This document shows positions 8,019 to 13,136 of a stretch of 13,136 nt of DNA, piece after piece. The notes under the pieces were generated by a model. That model searched no databases, was not told the DNA's origin, and saw nothing but the letters and a program-made list of their open reading frames with translations. The translations under genes were made by a program, and so were the position numbers. Position 1 is the stretch's first letter, and each line of letters opens with the position of its first letter. The stretch is from assembly GCA_002365735.1 (NCBI GenBank), contig DEZY01000095.1, positions 1 to 13,136 on the forward strand. The letters run 5' to 3'. This DNA is from Actinobacteria bacterium UBA3120. Its GTDB lineage: Bacteria > Actinomycetota > Actinomycetes > S36-B12.

Positions 8019-8091
8019 GCCTCCGTAGCTCAGGGGATAGAGCGCCGGTTTCCGGTACCGTAGGTCGCAGGTTCGATTCCTGCCGGGGGCA
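8019..8091 (+). tRNA. tRNA-Arg, anticodon CCG
   Basis: A full 73-nt cloverleaf can be drawn. The 7-bp acceptor stem is GCCTCCG with CGGGGGC (one T-G wobble). The D arm is GCTC/GAGC around AGGGGATA. The anticodon loop TTCCGGT has CCG at 8052-8054, reading codon CGG. The T arm is GCAGG/CCTGC around TTCGATT. The discriminator base is A, and CCA is not encoded. The first anticodon-stem pair (positions 27 and 43) is a C-T mismatch. The gene is intact. A serine recombinase gene begins 29 bp downstream, so its 3' flank is a candidate element boundary. Confidence 0.95.
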
Positions 8092-8108
8092 CAACGTTAC
8101 ATTAAGTG

Positions 8109-8114
8109 TATAGT
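8109..8114 (+). promoter_or_regulatory. -10 box of the serine recombinase gene (leaderless start)
   Basis: TATAGT is close to the TATAAT consensus and ends 6 nt before the ATG at 8121, so transcription would begin at the start codon. There is no ribosome-binding site. The -35 position would fall at about 8086-8091, inside the last bases of the tRNA gene, where only three bases match the consensus. Read-through from the tRNA promoter is an alternative. Confidence 0.5.
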
Positions 8115-8120
8115 GCTTTT

Positions 8121-9512
8121 ATGACCATATTTGGGTATATCCGCCTATCCGTGAGGGAATCCGACGAAGGAACATCTCTGGAGTCCCAAAGAGCCGCTAT
8201 TCAAGCATACGCAGACGTTCACGGAGAGCAAATCGAATTCTTCACGGACGATGGCTTCAGTGGTCGTTCGACCAAGCGTCCCGCCTATCAAGAACTCCGG
8301 CGGCGACTAGCGGAACCCGGCCTAACGGCCATTGTGTGCCGCTCGGTGGACCGCCTTGGTCGTAATCTTCGCGAGTTTTTGGCTTTGGTTGATGAGGCTG
8401 CTGAGCATGGGGTTTTTGTGGTGGCCACCGCCAGTTCTATCGATACGAGTACCTCGGCGGGGAAGATGTTTACTCAGTTGCTAGGTGTGTTCGCGGAGGC
8501 TGAGAGTTCGGCTATTGGTGAGCGTCAGGTATACAGTCAAAGAGAACGCAGGAAGCAAGGCCGAAGTATTGGTGTCGCTTCGTACGGATACCAAAGCCAA
8601 GACACTGGTTCAGGTTCATTCAAAGTGATTGTTGAGCATCAAGCCAACATCATTCTTACTGCCGCCGAAGCAGTGCTAGCCGGTGGATCAATTTATTCCG
8701 CCGCAAGATCAATGAATGCTGCTGGTGAAACCACGAGCCGTGGGAATCCTTGGTCAGGCATATCCCTGCGCCGCTTGCTGAGCAATCCAAGCATTGCGGG
8801 CCTACGTCATTATCAAGGTGAGCTTTTGACTGATGACTCTGGTGCTTTAATCCATGACAAGCACTTAGAGATCGTGCCGTTAGCACGCTGGAGGAAGCTC
8901 CAGGTTGTGTTGGAGTCACGCGCAGTAAGCAGGGTAGTTGGTACCTCGAGCGAGCAACTGCTTCTCACTGGCGTAGCAAGGTGTGGGACATGCCAAGGAA
9001 CCTTCGTCAAAGGCAGTCGAAAGAATCAATCACCGCGGTATCGTTGCCGCAATTTAGAGAACAATAAATGCGCTCAAGGTGTGACAATTAGTGTGGAAAA
9101 ATTAGACGCTTATGTGCTTGAACAATTGGAACCGTTGTCCCACATGCCAGTATTTGAAACCGTCACAACGGAAGATCCAGAGAATATTATTCAGCGGGAA
9201 ACACTCGCCATGCAGATTTCCGACGCAATGGAATCACTTGGTCAAGCAACACACGATCAAGTTGCGAAAATTGCCGTACGAATATCGGAACTAAAGCAAA
9301 GCCTGTCGATGGTTCCGATCAGCACTAGCGAGACCGCGCACGACACCGGAGCCACCTTTGGCGACCTGCTCCACGAATCACCTGAACTCGTGGTCAGGCA
9401 AGCATTAGAAGCCGTCATGGTTTATCCACCGGCCACACCGAAGTCACGCCAAATGAACTCTGAGCGCGTGCAGTTAATCTGGCGTGATTCCCTGCAAGAC
9501 TTTGACGACTAG
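8121..9512 (+). CDS. Large serine recombinase / site-specific integrase
   Basis: The 463-residue protein has the three-part layout of large serine recombinases. The N-terminal resolvase catalytic domain (about 1-148) holds the nucleophile Ser10 in GYIRLS, with DGFSG near 44-48 and RSVDRLGRN at 74-82. A recombinase DNA-binding domain follows at about 150-265. A zinc ribbon is at 285-320, with Cys288, Cys291, Cys309 and Cys317. The C-terminal tail, about 335-463, is helical. Such enzymes join attP and attB without host DNA homology. The frame extends to a GTG at 8106, but the ATG at 8121 fits the recombinase N-terminus and the TATAGT spacing. It probably inserts the element that fills the right of the window. 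Codons at 8361-8530 differ from the rest. Confidence 0.93.
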   Translation: MTIFGYIRLSVRESDEGTSLESQRAAIQAYADVHGEQIEFFTDDGFSGRSTKRPAYQELRRRLAEPGLTAIVCRSVDRLGRNLREFLALVDEAAEHGVFVVATASSIDTSTSAGKMFTQLLGVFAEAESSAIGERQVYSQRERRKQGRSIGVASYGYQSQDTGSGSFKVIVEHQANIILTAAEAVLAGGSIYSAARSMNAAGETTSRGNPWSGISLRRLLSNPSIAGLRHYQGELLTDDSGALIHDKHLEIVPLARWRKLQVVLESRAVSRVVGTSSEQLLLTGVARCGTCQGTFVKGSRKNQSPRYRCRNLENNKCAQGVTISVEKLDAYVLEQLEPLSHMPVFETVTTEDPENIIQRETLAMQISDAMESLGQATHDQVAKIAVRISELKQSLSMVPISTSETAHDTGATFGDLLHESPELVVRQALEAVMVYPPATPKSRQMNSERVQLIWRDSLQDFDD

Positions 9513-9519
9513 CCATGCA

Positions 9520-9547
9520 CGCCACGGCTCCTCCGGGCAACGTGGCG
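9520..9547. repeat. Inverted repeat after the recombinase stop codon
   Basis: CGCCACG at 9520-9526 pairs perfectly with CGTGGCG at 9541-9547 around a 14-nt loop. It begins 8 bp after the recombinase stop. No T-run follows on either strand, so it is not a standard intrinsic terminator. It could slow or end transcription, or be a protein-binding site. Confidence 0.5.
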
Positions 9548-9573
9548 GCATTCCCCAGTCGATTGCAGAGATT

Positions 9574-9604
9574 CCACAGACACCACATACTCCCACAGAC
9601 ACCA
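9574..9604. repeat. 12-bp direct repeat pair
   Basis: CCACAGACACCA occurs at 9574-9585 and again at 9593-9604, 19 bp apart start to start. The near two-turn spacing would place both copies on the same helix face for a binding protein. No third copy is seen nearby. Confidence 0.6.
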
Positions 9605-9608
9605 AAGC

Positions 9609-9627
9609 CTCCCGCCAAAAGCGGGAG
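9609..9627. terminator. GC-rich hairpin, possible weak terminator
   Basis: CTCCCGC at 9609-9615 pairs perfectly with GCGGGAG at 9621-9627 around a CAAAA loop. The flank on the plus strand is TGGTGTGC and on the minus strand GCTTTGG, so a proper U-run is missing. It lies between the convergent recombinase gene and the minus-strand cassette, where a two-way terminator would be expected. Confidence 0.35.
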
Positions 9628-9634
9628 TGGTGTG

Positions 9635-9687
9635 CTTGCGTAAGTGGTTCGGAATATGAGTAGTGCTAGTCAACTTGTGTAAGTGGT
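9635..9687. repeat. 14-nt direct repeat pair with one mismatch
   Basis: CTTGCGTAAGTGGT at 9635-9648 and CTTGTGTAAGTGGT at 9674-9687 differ at one base and lie 39 bp apart. The second copy overlaps the last codons of the decayed minus-strand frame. Read on the minus strand, the ACTTACACAAGTTGAC at 9672-9687 resembles ends of some insertion sequences, but this is only an impression. Confidence 0.5.
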
Positions 9688-9936
9688 GTAATGGAAAGCG
9701 TCAGTAATGCGTGTGGCGCGGCGTTTGGGGTTTTCGGGGTGGTACTGCTCGTGACGGTTTAGGTGGTCTTGGTTTTGTGGTTGGGCCAACGCTGCGATTC
9801 ATTCAATCGCCGAAATAATCGGATGCCTAGCCCACATGACTCGCCGGATCGGGATTGATTCAAAGCGACCGTCGGCAGTTATTCTTCGATGTGCTTCCTG
9901 TAAGTGCTCGTTAGTGAGTTTGTGCCGACTTGTTCT
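9673..9936 (-). pseudogene. Decayed reading frame, possible gene remnant
   Basis: On the minus strand an 88-codon frame runs between stops at 9937-9939 and 9670-9672, broken once by an in-frame TGA at 9799-9801. It has no usable start codon upstream of its middle. The conceptual product has protein-like stretches on both sides of the stop: LTNEHLQEAHRRITADGRF before it, and HLNRHEQYHPENPKRR in the C-terminal half. The even, hydrophilic composition on both sides suggests a gene fragment with one nonsense change rather than chance. I do not recognise the family. A transposase or DNA-binding protein fragment would fit the setting, but nothing in the residues proves it. Confidence 0.35.
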
Positions 9937-9941
9937 TCAAT

Positions 9942-10115
9942 TTACTCAAACGTTTTTTCCAGTAGTCTTTGGTTCTTCCCCGAAAGCCCCCCCACGCCGG
10001 TACCTTCTTCGTAATACCTATCCACCTCCTTATATGAATCACTTTCCCCGCAGCCCGATAGGGCGATACCGAGTGCTGCAACGCCGGCCACTGTTGCCGT
10101 TAGAACTTTCGACAT
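9942..10115 (-). CDS. Small lipoprotein
   Basis: A 57-residue protein with a signal peptide: Met-Ser-Lys, a hydrophobic stretch TATVAGVAALGIA, then the lipobox LSGC with the lipidated cysteine near residue 22. The exported part is about 35 hydrophilic residues with a GTGVGGLSG turn and a charged tail. A longer in-frame ATG exists at 10167-10169, but AAGGAG lies 7 nt before the ATG at 10113-10115 and that start gives a proper signal peptide, so the shorter form is chosen. The protein would be anchored to the outer face of the membrane. It follows the zinc-ribbon membrane protein gene, also on the minus strand. Function unknown. Confidence 0.75.
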   Translation of the reverse strand: MSKVLTATVAGVAALGIALSGCGESDSYKEVDRYYEEGTGVGGLSGKNQRLLEKTFE

Positions 10116-10186
10116 ACGTGTCTCCTTCAAATCCTCCGAAACGTCCTGACTGTCACTAAAATGTACCAACCGGGTTGCGCCTGACG

Positions 10187-10208
10187 CTTAGCCTCCACCG
10201 TGGCTAAG
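10187..10208 (-). terminator. Hairpin across the stop of the zinc-ribbon gene
   Basis: CTTAGCC and GGCTAAG form a perfect 7-bp stem (10187-10193 with 10202-10208) around an 8-nt loop and include the TAG stop codon. No T-run follows on the minus strand, so it may be a processing or partial termination structure between this gene and the lipoprotein gene. Confidence 0.35.
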
Positions 10209-10962
10209 TCCCGAAAAGGCGACCACCGGTTCCATCGTCACCGAAATCCTCTACCGTAAAGTATTTACCTATTGTCTTCAGCGTTTTCGGTTTGCCAGAT
10301 CCGTGTACGGCTCCCGTCTCGAATTCGATATTCACCGTCTGCGCGGGCATCTTGCCGTAAGCCGCGGTGTCCACCTCGCCTTTGCTGCATTGCGACAAGC
10401 CAGCAGTTCCGCTGGGAGGTGTGCATTTAAATCCCATGGCGAGGAGGTCATCTCTCAAAGTCTCCAAGTCAGTTGTAGGGGTTGGGTCCATCGTCTCGGC
10501 AGAAGGCTGTGAAGATGCCGAAGAATTTGTTGTCGCCGGTTCTGAGCTATCAGAAGCAGAGAACATGAAGCTAAGGAGAACAACTGCGTAGGGCACAATG
10601 AACAGGGACCCGATTACCACTGCAAAGACACCCTTTGTGTTGCTCACGCCATGCCGCTTTGCTTCCTTTATCGCGGCCACTCCAAAAAAGACACCAAAGA
10701 ATGCAGTGATCCCGAGACTAATGATACCCAGGATCGATAACCACAAAGCACCAGTTCCTGGGGTCCCGTAGGGTCTGCCCAGCGACGGCGGGGCAGTAAT
10801 CGATCCTTGAACAATCGGCGTGACTGTTGGAGGTTGCTCATCAGGTTGCGCATCAGGTTGAATCGTTGACTTTGGGTCGATTAACGCCGTCCCACACTTC
10901 GAACAGAACCCTGCGTCTTCGGCTGATTCAGTCCCACACTTCGAACAAAAAATTGACGCCAC
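10204..10962 (-). CDS. Zinc-ribbon membrane protein with extracytoplasmic domain
   Basis: The 252-residue protein starts with a double-CxxC zinc ribbon (Cys6, Cys9, Cys20, Cys23) in which the motif FCSKCGT occurs twice. A Pro/Gln-rich linker with the repeat QPDAQPDEQ follows. Two membrane helices are at about 71-98 and 112-135, resembling DUF4190-like membrane modules. Then comes a Ser/Thr/Pro-rich stretch (136-164) and a C-terminal domain of about 85 residues with one cysteine pair (Cys180, Cys192). The ribbon would be cytoplasmic and the C-terminal domain outside. Zinc-ribbon proteins of this layout are common in actinobacteria and of mixed function. The start is GTG at 10960-10962, with AGGAGA 7 nt upstream. 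Role unknown; a sensor or anchor is possible. Confidence 0.82.
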   Translation of the reverse strand: MASIFCSKCGTESAEDAGFCSKCGTALIDPKSTIQPDAQPDEQPPTVTPIVQGSITAPPSLGRPYGTPGTGALWLSILGIISLGITAFFGVFFGVAAIKEAKRHGVSNTKGVFAVVIGSLFIVPYAVVLLSFMFSASDSSEPATTNSSASSQPSAETMDPTPTTDLETLRDDLLAMGFKCTPPSGTAGLSQCSKGEVDTAAYGKMPAQTVNIEFETGAVHGSGKPKTLKTIGKYFTVEDFGDDGTGGRLFGT

Positions 10963-11186
10963 AGTGATCTCTCCTGAACTCGTAGATCGAAAATTAATTC
11001 TTCCATGATGTTACTTCGCCTCCGCCGGTTCATGGTTCCGAGGGTGGCCGGGCTACCTACCCCGGGCTATGCCCCGGATTTTCCCCGGCGCTTCTGGCCC
11101 TGCGTCCAGATCCCACATAGCTCCGCAGTGTTTACCCTCCCCGTCTTACCCCCCCCCGGGTATAAAATAGGGAGGCAGTCTGAGCA
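10963..11186 (-). other. G-rich structured spacer upstream of the zinc-ribbon gene
   Basis: These 224 nt hold no gene. On the minus strand they carry a G9 run (opposite C9 at 11149-11157), nearby GGGG and GGG runs, and then a nested GC-rich inverted repeat (11047-11089). A TATAAAAT sequence lies at 11161-11168. The promoter of the zinc-ribbon gene should be here if it is not transcribed from the genes upstream, but no convincing -35/-10 pair on the minus strand was found. Confidence 0.45.
11047..11089. repeat. Nested GC-rich inverted repeat
   Basis: An outer stem pairs GCCGGG (11047-11052) with CCCGGC (11084-11089). Inside it, CCGGG (11062-11066) pairs with CCCGG (11073-11077). All arms share a CCGGG core and all pairs are perfect. 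In RNA from the minus strand this would lie about 85 nt before the zinc-ribbon start. No T-run follows it. Confidence 0.5.
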
Positions 11187-11414
11187 CTAAAATGAGTACA
11201 ATCCGTTCCGCTTCTTATTTTCAGCAGTCAGTTGCCGTTCTCGGGCTTCGATCCGATCCAAAGCAGTTTTTAATTCCTGCTCGCTATTACCGACCTCTTG
11301 ACTCACCCTTTTTACACGCTGTCTGTCCAGTTCTAAGTTTTTTAATTGACGATCTAGTTCTTTGTCGTTCTTTTCCCGTAAATACTTGCGTGCATTTTCT
11401 CCAACATCGTTCAT
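11187..11414 (-). CDS. Small charged coiled-coil protein
   Basis: A 75-residue protein, almost entirely helical by composition: Lys, Arg, Glu, Gln and Leu/Val repeat with heptad-like spacing from about residue 12 to 68, for example ELDRQLKNLELDRQRV. It has no signal peptide and no membrane segment, so it is probably cytoplasmic. The start is ATG at 11412-11414 with AAGGAG 8-9 nt upstream. A hairpin lies between it and the previous cassette gene, which may lower or separate its expression. The antisense strand is also open here, but that frame has no better support. I do not recognise a family. A structural or partner-binding role would fit the coiled coil. Confidence 0.72.
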   Translation of the reverse strand: MNDVGENARKYLREKNDKELDRQLKNLELDRQRVKRVSQEVGNSEQELKTALDRIEARERQLTAENKKRNGLYSF

Positions 11415-11445
11415 TCTGTGGTCTCCTTAATTTACAACAACGCCA

Positions 11446-11477
11446 GCGCTTGCCCCCATAGCCAAGGAAGCAAGCGC
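11446..11477 (-). terminator. Hairpin between two cassette genes, possible attenuator
   Basis: GCGCTTGC at 11446-11453 pairs perfectly over 8 bp with GCAAGCGC at 11470-11477 around a 16-nt loop. On the minus strand the 3' side is followed by TGGCGTTGTTGT, a weak T-rich stretch. It sits in the 76-nt gap between the 52-codon gene and the coiled-coil gene, the largest gap among the genes from 13136 to 11187, so it may reduce read-through. Confidence 0.4.
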
Positions 11478-11490
11478 CAGCAGTTGTGTC

Positions 11491-11649
11491 TTAGATGCTT
11501 CTGCTATTCAGCATGTCAGTGAAACTCTCCATAGGAATCACCACAGGCTCCTCACCCTGTGCATCAACCTTTGCTTGTAGTTCTGCCGATTCCGCCATCT
11601 TCGCCATCACCAATTTTTGGTGTGCCTGAATATCTGAACTGAGATCCAT
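11491..11649 (-). CDS. Small helical protein, function unknown
   Basis: A 52-residue protein beginning MDLSSDIQAHQKLVMAKM and ending SFTDMLNSRSI. It is helical and Met/Glu/Gln-rich at the N-terminus, with a short EEPVVIP strand-like stretch in the middle. AAGGAG lies 8 nt before the ATG at 11647-11649, inside the end of the previous gene, whose stop is only 2 nt upstream. The good ribosome-binding site, tight spacing and matching direction support it as real despite its size. No family recognised. Confidence 0.68.
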   Translation of the reverse strand: MDLSSDIQAHQKLVMAKMAESAELQAKVDAQGEEPVVIPMESFTDMLNSRSI

Positions 11650-11651
11650 TC

Positions 11652-11840
11652 CTAATGCTCCTTGTGTGTGTTGCGGATACGGTGGTTATCAAGATTCAAC
11701 AAACTGACCACTTCATCTATTGACTGTGACGATGCTCTGTGCGGTCTGCCGTTCTCATCTATTCTGGTGATGTTCTGTGACTCCCTCACTGCAATGTAGG
11801 AGCGCGCGCGATCCACTTGCTGCTCCGAATAGTCGTTCAC
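11652..11840 (-). CDS. Small protein coupled to the upstream gene, function unknown
   Basis: With the GTG at 11838-11840 it has 62 residues and overlaps the stop of the upstream gene by the 4 bases GTGA, the classic form of translational coupling. In-frame starts further up (ATG at 11850-11852, GTG at 11907-11909) have no ribosome-binding site and would overlap the upstream gene more. The protein is hydrophilic, with NDYSEQQVDRARSYIAVRES at its start, an SQSIDEVVSLLNLDNHRI helical stretch and a His/Lys-rich end. There is no signal peptide or membrane segment. No family recognised. Confidence 0.65.
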   Translation of the reverse strand: MNDYSEQQVDRARSYIAVRESQNITRIDENGRPHRASSQSIDEVVSLLNLDNHRIRNTHKEH

Positions 11841-12154
11841 GACAGCAACCATTTTGTCGGAGTGATCGTGTAGACCGTTCCTGTCGCGAGTAGCACCTGG
11901 CTTACCCACTCAAGGTGAACTAAGTGCTCTGATTTGAAATATCCAGCGGTAATCGTCAAACGCATTGTTCTTTGGAAATTCTCCACCGACCAAGGAACGA
12001 AATTCCTCGGACCGTCTGCCCAATTGACGGAGACCATATTTCGGAAGCCGGTGTCTAGAATTAGAGCTTCAGATATATCTCGCCATTTAGTTAACTGTGG
12101 TAGCCCATCCCAACAGTGATTCGGCTGTACTTCGAAAACGTTTGTTGGGTTCAT
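11837..12154 (-). CDS. Small Trp-rich protein, function unknown
   Basis: A 105-residue protein with five tryptophans, beginning MNPTNVFEVQPNHCWDGLPQ and with likely beta-strand stretches towards the end (LVHLEWVSQVLLATGTVYTI). There is no signal peptide or clear membrane helix. The ATG at 12152-12154 overlaps the stop of the upstream gene as ATGA, and its own stop overlaps the next start as GTGA, so it is locked into the cassette on both sides. No family recognised. The mix of small acidic and aromatic segments would suit a binding or immunity-like protein, but that is a guess. Confidence 0.68.
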   Translation of the reverse strand: MNPTNVFEVQPNHCWDGLPQLTKWRDISEALILDTGFRNMVSVNWADGPRNFVPWSVENFQRTMRLTITAGYFKSEHLVHLEWVSQVLLATGTVYTITPTKWLLS

Positions 12155-12741
12155 ACGTTCACCGACTCTGTTGAAGCAAGCAGTTGTGCAAACGACTTCG
12201 CCTTATCTGCAACTTCCGTTGCCGGTGGCGTACTACCTTGATGTCCGGCTACCAGCGAGTTTCTCCCGCCTCTCGCGAAACGTAGTTCGTCGCGTACCTT
12301 GCGACTGGCTTGGAGGCCAGATTCTATTTTTGAAATTTCAGCAATAGAATTGTGTATCATGCTATCGGCATTATTGATTATGTTTGAAAGTTCATTCAAT
12401 CTTTCCGCAACCTGTAAACGAACTGCCTCAATAAGCAGCGCCTCTTGGCACACGGTGTCCAATGCGCGTTCCGCATTGAGTACAGCCTGACCACGGAGAT
12501 TGAGGTCATGCGAAAGGTCACCAAGAATTAATGCGTGGCTTGGGAGTACTCGCTGCATTCTGTTGTTGCGTACGTCAGCAAGACCAGCGCCGTATTCCTG
12601 GCATTTCTGAGCCAGTTTTACTTCTGAAGCAATCGCAGCCTCGCGCGTGCCCTGATAGACGACATCAAGACGGAGGTCGACTTTCTCGACTCCCTTGATG
12701 CGCCTATTCCCCACGCAAAGGACATCAGCGCATTTGCGCAC
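12151..12741 (-). CDS. Helical protein of 196 residues, function unknown
   Basis: After a short basic N-terminus the protein is mostly helical. Long Ala/Glu/Leu-rich runs span about 30-60 and 85-155, for example ERALDTVCQEALLIEAVRLQ, with likely coiled coil near 110-150. A low-complexity Gly/Ser/Pro stretch lies near 158-175 and a final short helix follows. There is no signal peptide or membrane segment. The GTG at 12739-12741 begins 26 nt after the stop of the upstream gene; no Shine-Dalgarno is clear, and the frame stays open about 30 codons further up with no usable start in that stretch. The stop overlaps the next ATG as ATGA. No family recognised. Confidence 0.68.
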   Translation of the reverse strand: MRKCADVLCVGNRRIKGVEKVDLRLDVVYQGTREAAIASEVKLAQKCQEYGAGLADVRNNRMQRVLPSHALILGDLSHDLNLRGQAVLNAERALDTVCQEALLIEAVRLQVAERLNELSNIINNADSMIHNSIAEISKIESGLQASRKVRDELRFARGGRNSLVAGHQGSTPPATEVADKAKSFAQLLASTESVNV

Positions 12742-12767
12742 TGATTCGCGCCCATAAGCTGAACGCT

Positions 12768-13136
12768 TTACGGCCCGTAGGGGAAGCCCAACTGTCCAGG
12801 GAACCCATCGGTGAAGTCAACGTTGTTTACCCCTGTCTGTGGGTATTGCTGCGTTTCATCAAGTGTCCAGCACTCGCCGTCCTCGTATGTTCCGCAGACG
12901 TAGTAGCCGCCGCCCAATGGGTCCCCGCTGGGCCAGAACGTCACCGGGCGATCAGTTGAAGAGCTTGGTAGCGGTGGGGGGAAGGGATCGCAGTTGGCAC
13001 TGTTGTCAGGTCCCGCGCAGAACCGAATCGGCAGCATGTTGACATTGACATTAGTCGCGTAGGCCAATGAGACATACATGAGTGACTTCCGAAGCGGATT
13101 CCCATAGAAGTCCATATTGGTGAATTGGAAGTTCCC
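12768..13136 (-). CDS. C-terminal part of an unrecognised protein (cut by window edge)
   Basis: The frame is open to the window edge and no ribosome-binding site precedes its first ATG at 13113-13115, so this is the 3' end of a longer gene. The visible 122 residues are rich in Pro, Gly, Ser, Tyr and Phe. They contain four cysteines in two close pairs (FCAGPDNSANC and VCGTYEDGEC), a PFPPPLPSSS spacer, and a DFTDGFPGQLGFPYGP tail. Paired cysteines with low helix content are typical of exported or surface proteins, where they would form disulfides; export itself cannot be seen because the N-terminus is missing. It would be the first visible gene of the cassette. Confidence 0.65.
   Translation of the reverse strand, partial: GNFQFTNMDFYGNPLRKSLMYVSLAYATNVNVNMLPIRFCAGPDNSANCDPFPPPLPSSSTDRPVTFWPSGDPLGGGYYVCGTYEDGECWTLDETQQYPQTGVNNVDFTDGFPGQLGFPYGP

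Follow-up and report, generated by a model that had tools for sequence, protein, structure and literature searches.

The genes g1 to g4 form one cargo operon of an island of about 10.2 kb, which carries a large serine integrase and sits at the 3' end of a tRNA-Arg(CCG) gene, between this tRNA and the genes yhhQ and tgt. Taken as a whole, the reading in which this operon encodes a cytoplasmic accessory module is rather probable. The window, i.e., the whole stretch of DNA that was analyzed (13,136 nucleotides), is the entire contig C184 of a draft genome that totals 2,039,392 bases over 188 contigs. Its host setting is that of an uncultured aquatic actinobacterium. The same-genus relative G003, to which it is compared below, is a Candidatus Nanopelagicales MAG. 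As an element the island belongs, as a variant, with the known integrase islands, and no published description of it was found in the literature search. It shows insertion and gene exchange by cargo islands in aquatic actinobacteria that are abundant and mostly uncultured. It also gives true borders to a conserved four-gene operon that can now be tested, with families that, judging by the libraries used, seem undescribed.

Insertion site and extent of the island

The left part of the window is chromosomal, as judged by Pfam on its ORFs: GHMP kinase (thrB-like), PALP enzyme (thrC-like), homoserine dehydrogenase, lysA-type decarboxylase, arginyl-tRNA synthetase and BrkB-family protein (the names thrB, thrC and lysA are assigned here). 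The insertion target is the tRNA-Arg(CCG) gene (8019..8092, + strand), identified by ARAGORN, Rfam and comparison with empty sites. The left end of the island is the 3' end of this gene, with the core GGGCACAA at about 8086-8097 with reference to the empty sites; GGGCACAA is common to both island ends.

Seven stretches around this site were fetched from sister genomes. Six contain the tRNA and the seventh (L042) stops short of it. In all six the similarity to the window breaks off 2-9 bases past tRNA-Arg and yhhQ comes next; tRNA-Arg adjoining yhhQ and tgt is the empty site. The right-half pieces of the empty site were sought in the window and are absent. The yhhQ gene of the window genome itself lies at 4490-5182 of contig C167, is 94% identical to that of a sister genome and is followed by tgt (Pfam Vut_1 and TGT). 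This makes the stretch of C167 ahead of yhhQ the far end of the island.

Contig C167 starts within the gene whose tail closes the window, i.e., one gene (with FN3 domain, see below) is split over two contigs, and we infer that C184 and C167 join inside it. The alignment of this gene to two homologues gives 209-210 missing residues, i.e., 627-630 bases. The island thus comprises positions 8093-13136 of the window, a presumed gap of 0.63 kb and positions 1 to about 4489 of C167 (5.04 + 0.63 + 4.49 = about 10.2 kb). Both ends are defined against the empty site, and the join between the contigs is deduced from the shared gene. The island DNA left unread is about 0.63 kb plus two runs of N in C167 (290 and 183 bases; L044:763-1052 and 1605-1787), located in the FN3 gene and directly upstream of it. 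The original prediction had placed the genes within a candidate mobile element, and this is borne out by the integrase, by the empty sites of the sister genomes and by the two island ends.

At the empty site (L036:2613-2700, L037:3238-3320 and other sister loci; L044:4480-4490) tRNA-Arg ends 2-3 bases ahead of the yhhQ start codon. Given this proximity, the yhhQ transporter gene may be transcribed from the tRNA promoter there, as a nearly leaderless message. The insertion of the island parts tRNA-Arg from yhhQ. Close to the right end of the island are three imperfect direct repeats of 42 nt, spaced by 42-47 nt (L044:3946-4076), of iteron-like or regulatory appearance.

The four-gene cassette

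The five small ORFs and the tail of a larger one are all present on the - strand, in the same direction and with the junctions originally described. They are: g1 (12151..12741, 196 aa, GTG start, helical), g2 (11837..12154, 105 aa), g3 (11652..11852, 66 aa from ATG 11852 or 62 aa from GTG 11840, the longest ORF being 11652-11909), g4 (11491..11649, 52 aa) and g5 (11187..11414, 75 aa, coiled-coil-like). The stop of the tail is separated from the GTG of g1 by 26 nt. The genes g1 and g2 overlap by ATGA; g2 and g3 overlap by GTGA, or by 16 nt if g3 begins at the in-frame ATG; g3 and g4 are 2 nt apart, and g4 and g5 76 nt. The last gap holds, on the - strand, a terminator-like hairpin of 17 pairs 3' of g4 (11441..11482; −36.1 kcal/mol, z −4.7, none of 200 shuffles as stable). 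It ranks first among the terminator-like sites of the region; the scan gave 8 sites vs. 5.3 (sd 2.3) in shuffled sequences, so the number of sites is unremarkable.

All five genes and the tail had been taken as one unit. The sequence and the predicted terminator restrict the coupled unit to four genes, g1-g4, i.e., one cargo operon closed by the hairpin: the tail belongs to the FN3 gene, and g5 lies past the hairpin and did not turn up in the copy of G003. No relative of g5 was detected in four family libraries or in the fetched loci, the G003 cassette locus (L012) included at E 0.05.

The start sites of g2, g3 and g4 are clear and these genes are intact in the window; g1 has no visible ribosome-binding site upstream. 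No strong hydrophobic stretch is present in g1-g5, and g1-g4 have no obvious export or membrane segment.

The same order g1-g4 recurs in one other actinobacterial genome, G003. Its contig C63 (L012) bears, on one strand, the later part of g1 (8998-9318, 60% identity), then g2 (9330-9629, 32%), g3 (9623-9811, 41%) and g4 (9829-9978, 50%). The numbers of differences between window and G003 at codon positions 1/2/3 are 42/24/74 for g1, 47/34/65 for g2 and 19/16/30 for g4; the bias is weak for g3 (31/24/35). This conserved order, together with the protein relatives of g1 and g2 described below, indicates that these ORFs are more than chance. It must be added that only two genomes, both of the same genus, have the four genes together, and that the G003 copy is partly decayed.

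Relatives and folds of g1 and g2

As the original prediction supposed, the products have no recognised family: Pfam, PHROGs, NCBIfam and PADLOC gave no convincing match for g1-g5, and searches with the relatives of g1 and g2 gave none either (the sole PADLOC match is that of g5, E 0.04, in a library that covers described systems only). Among 5.8 billion proteins, 25 relatives were found for g1 and 5 for g2, near-identical copies included; none has a Pfam domain. Most full relatives of g1 have 193 aa or close to it, and for 22 of the 25 the longest contig is below 5,000 bases; P0003 and P0001 have contigs of 120,897 and 23,390 bases. One relative of g1 (P0021) and one of g2 (P0029), with a longest contig of 2361 bases each, come perhaps from one contig.

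In whole genomes g1 matched 2 of 57 and 2 of 85 (own genome and G003 each time) and 1 of 394 (own only). The gene g2 is present in 2 of 166 genomes, again its own and G003; the profile included the G003 row, so that this second match is given by construction. Searches by short exact patterns on contigs found no g1 in IMG/VR or GTDB contigs, nor was g1 found in plasmids or in 50,697 phage records; g2 gave a single locus in GTDB contigs (L045, which is the G003 cassette contig) and none in IMG/VR or the same phage records. These pattern scans are insensitive: that of g1 in GTDB contigs missed the G003 contig which g2 found.

A relative of g1 was modelled as long helices (pLDDT 83.5, pTM 0.54), and g1 is predicted to be all-helical; the model of g2 is poor (pLDDT 51.8) and unfit for a fold search. 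The fold search of g1 against PDB and viral models returned generic helical matches and nothing distinctive, and by sequence its matches to solved structures are weak coiled-coil ones (best E 0.014). An ESCRT-III/PspA-like reading was considered, the likeness being the long helices, with CHMP1B/IST1 as top Foldseek rows. It was dropped; the match has E 0.18, TM 0.31 and rmsd 13, and is absent among the 50 rows listed by a second aligner, all of them generic long helices. An LXG reading (weak matches in 5 of 25 alignment rows, best E 0.0058) was likewise attributed to chance in a long helical protein.

Two alignments of g1 were used, one with 22 of the 25 matches (three shorter ones left out) and another with 24 of 25. 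The first 32 residues of g1 are peculiar: P0001, a near-identical copy (99%, one residue different), agrees at 31 of 32, and the 20 other covering rows agree at only 2-6 of 28. The rest of g1 retains the residues conserved among the relatives. The start of g1 has thus probably been replaced, and with the end of the FN3 gene only 26 nt upstream this is the simplest reading: the replacement would probably have accompanied the arrival of that gene. The 26-nt junction between tail and g1 is then probably secondary. An assembly error is made less likely by P0001, a separate sequence one residue apart. On the other hand, the profile matches of g1 reach model position 8 or 10, so that the start may be merely strongly diverged.

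These features of g1 bear on whether g1-g4 are decaying leftovers without present function, in an island whose retention is owed to other cargo, e.g., the secreted FN3 protein. Conservation is lacking at the start of g1, with no visible ribosome-binding site before it, and in G003 the gene carries a stop and is missing its start; yet g2-g4 are intact with clear starts, the remainder of g1 keeps its conserved residues and a near-identical copy of g1 exists. Decay is on this balance rather unlikely.

The cassette would most likely be a small cytoplasmic accessory module, with the helical g1 as scaffold and g2-g4 as partners. Short overlaps between genes are common in bacterial operons. The original prediction took the close coupling to imply that the proteins act together, perhaps as one complex; that such coupling implies a complex is not supported, and a joint complex of the g1-g4 proteins is possible. 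For the benefit of the module one may guess, e.g., at defence or at the exclusion of rivals, from the company such islands keep; this guess is more probably wrong than right. The same tentative weight is given to the fuller proposal that the four proteins of g1-g4, with the helical g1 as scaffold, make up an undescribed cytoplasmic system, spread by serine-integrase islands in aquatic actinobacteria and serving defence or exclusion of rival elements.

Integrase and other island genes

An intact large serine integrase of 468 aa (8106..9512, + strand) lies at one end of the island, with PF00239, PF07508 and PF13408 above cut-off and a PHROG integrase match. Its relative in G003 is 48% identical. 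No relative was found in IMG/VR by short exact patterns, an insensitive scan, and 993 phage records match it, each with less than 60% identity. The ORFs of the island taken as genes share one direction, the integrase excepted. A stable fold at 9560-9700 (z −2.8), between the integrase and the next ORF, is perhaps a terminator between convergent genes.

Two genes on the - strand stand between this fold and g5. The first is a small lipoprotein-like ORF (9942..10169) with an inner ATG (MSKVL...), a lipobox LSGC seen by eye, a hydrophobic stretch and no Pfam match. The second encodes a zinc-ribbon membrane protein of 252 aa (10204..10962; PF13240 above cut-off, DUF4190 below) with a 31% identical relative beside the G003 cassette. 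On C167 the island contains a 46-aa zinc-finger protein, a 247-aa protein, a 269-aa ORF and the N-terminal part of the FN3 gene. The 247-aa protein is present in 2 of 166 genomes (own and G003), and short exact patterns, again insensitive, found no relative in IMG/VR; plasmids and phages gave none either. The 269-aa ORF has a hydrophobic stretch and is predicted to be possibly exported from an inner start.

No capsid, packaging, replication or conjugation gene was recognised in the island DNA read, and the Walker A motif is absent from all its stop-free stretches of at least 60 residues. PHROG matches of island ORFs are not convincing, except those of the integrase and of a zinc finger without assigned function. 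By its sequence the island is one integrase and otherwise mostly cargo. The absence of Walker A suggests that it hitchhikes, and with none of the above gene classes recognised it would probably spread by excision with the aid of a helper, e.g., a phage, or else through DNA uptake.

The same observations bear on a quite unlikely alternative, in which the island is the provirus or relic of an undescribed phage or phage satellite, and g1-g4 belong to its genes for the virion or for assembly. The integrase family is common to many actinophages (the 993 records above), relatives of g1 have weak PHROG matches to tail and baseplate proteins (best E 0.0092 and 0.098), and the 269-aa ORF has one to a minor tail protein (E 0.0018). 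However, the PHROG matches are at the level expected of long helical proteins, relatives of g1 and g2 are absent from the 50,697 phage records and from the IMG/VR pattern scan, and without a Walker A ATPase there is no recognisable terminase in the DNA read.

Comparison with known elements

AICEs, as characterized in passages of PMC3218068, are integrated, integrase-bearing actinobacterial elements; some have serine recombinases, and eight of Mycobacterium are located in a tRNA-Leu gene. The island resembles them in being such an element. It differs by having no match to an FtsK/SpoIIIE-type Tra, Rep or Prim-Pol in the scanned ORFs. For Tra this rests on Pfam and on the Walker A scan, 0.63 kb and two N runs being unread; for RepSA, RepAM and Prim-Pol it rests on Pfam, the RepSA model not being among the models and the 247-aa protein being without family. 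The 0.63 kb and the N runs could hold genes that would change the class of the island.

According to the portion of PMC11389934 on phage satellites and hitcher elements, these are small and integrated, with an incomplete set of virion genes and the need of a helper, as may be said of the island; they differ from it in that no packaging, capsid-altering or replication gene is recognised here. Tycheposons, as described in PMC10872708, are cargo islands beside tRNA genes in streamlined aquatic bacteria, a likeness to the present island. There, on the contrary, the recombinase at the tRNA border is a tyrosine recombinase, vs. a serine integrase here, and the window island is much simpler.

Integration into a tRNA gene by a serine recombinase was described as rare in 2011 (PMC3218068); phage phiRSM1 is given there as a case. 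A filamentous-phage reading after phiRSM1 was dropped because no Walker A ATPase was found.

The FN3 gene

The 122 aa of the tail (12768..13136, - strand), which is open at the contig end, are the C-terminal part of a secreted FN3 protein; the N-terminal part is on C167 (L044 1-1588, - strand). Matches to the tail occur in 4 of 166 genomes of the order: its own, G044 (50% identity), G040 (44%) and, weakly, G069 (E 5e-4, internal stop). The related ORFs have 824 aa in G044 and 746 aa in G040, with the FN3 domain above cut-off. In G044 a GH18 protein adjoins the FN3 gene. The ORF next to the FN3 gene of G040 is truncated where the contig stops and has no Pfam match of its own, and it is 86% identical to the GH18 protein of G044 over 178 residues. 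No relative of the tail was found in IMG/VR by short exact patterns, an insensitive scan.

Since these relatives adjoin a GH18 gene without the cassette, the FN3 gene is a separate cargo outside the coupled unit. Homologues in other settings had been named as what would speak against the original prediction; they were found for this member. That all six genes, exported protein included, form one system is very improbable, for despite the shared direction and the short gap of 26 nt the FN3 relatives lie beside GH18 without the cassette, g1 was not found in G040 or G044, within the taxonomic order g2 was found only in its own genome and G003, G003 has g1-g4 and no FN3-gene relative was found there, and g5 is past the hairpin. 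The link between FN3 gene and g1 could nevertheless be functional in the window genome, even if recent.

Further loci of G003

Besides the cassette, L012 has the zinc-ribbon relative and a partial, related integrase that faces the cassette. The zinc-ribbon gene is oriented relative to the integrase in the opposite manner to that of the window. The decay of this copy consists of the stop in g1, the loss of its start and an integrase truncated where the contig stops. The same tRNA-Arg is found, with a broken integrase, on a second G003 contig.

The full-length integrase relative of G003 (48%) is on another contig (L013:10121-11524), after an M20-type peptidase-like ORF and before a pentapeptide-repeat-like ORF; this region is possibly a second island of such kind. 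A third contig (L048:1-3591) carries the end of the 247-aa gene (90% identity), a DUF4190 protein and other cargo, including a 511-aa protein with six DUF4379 zinc-finger repeats. This gene content suggests a common island backbone with changing cargo.
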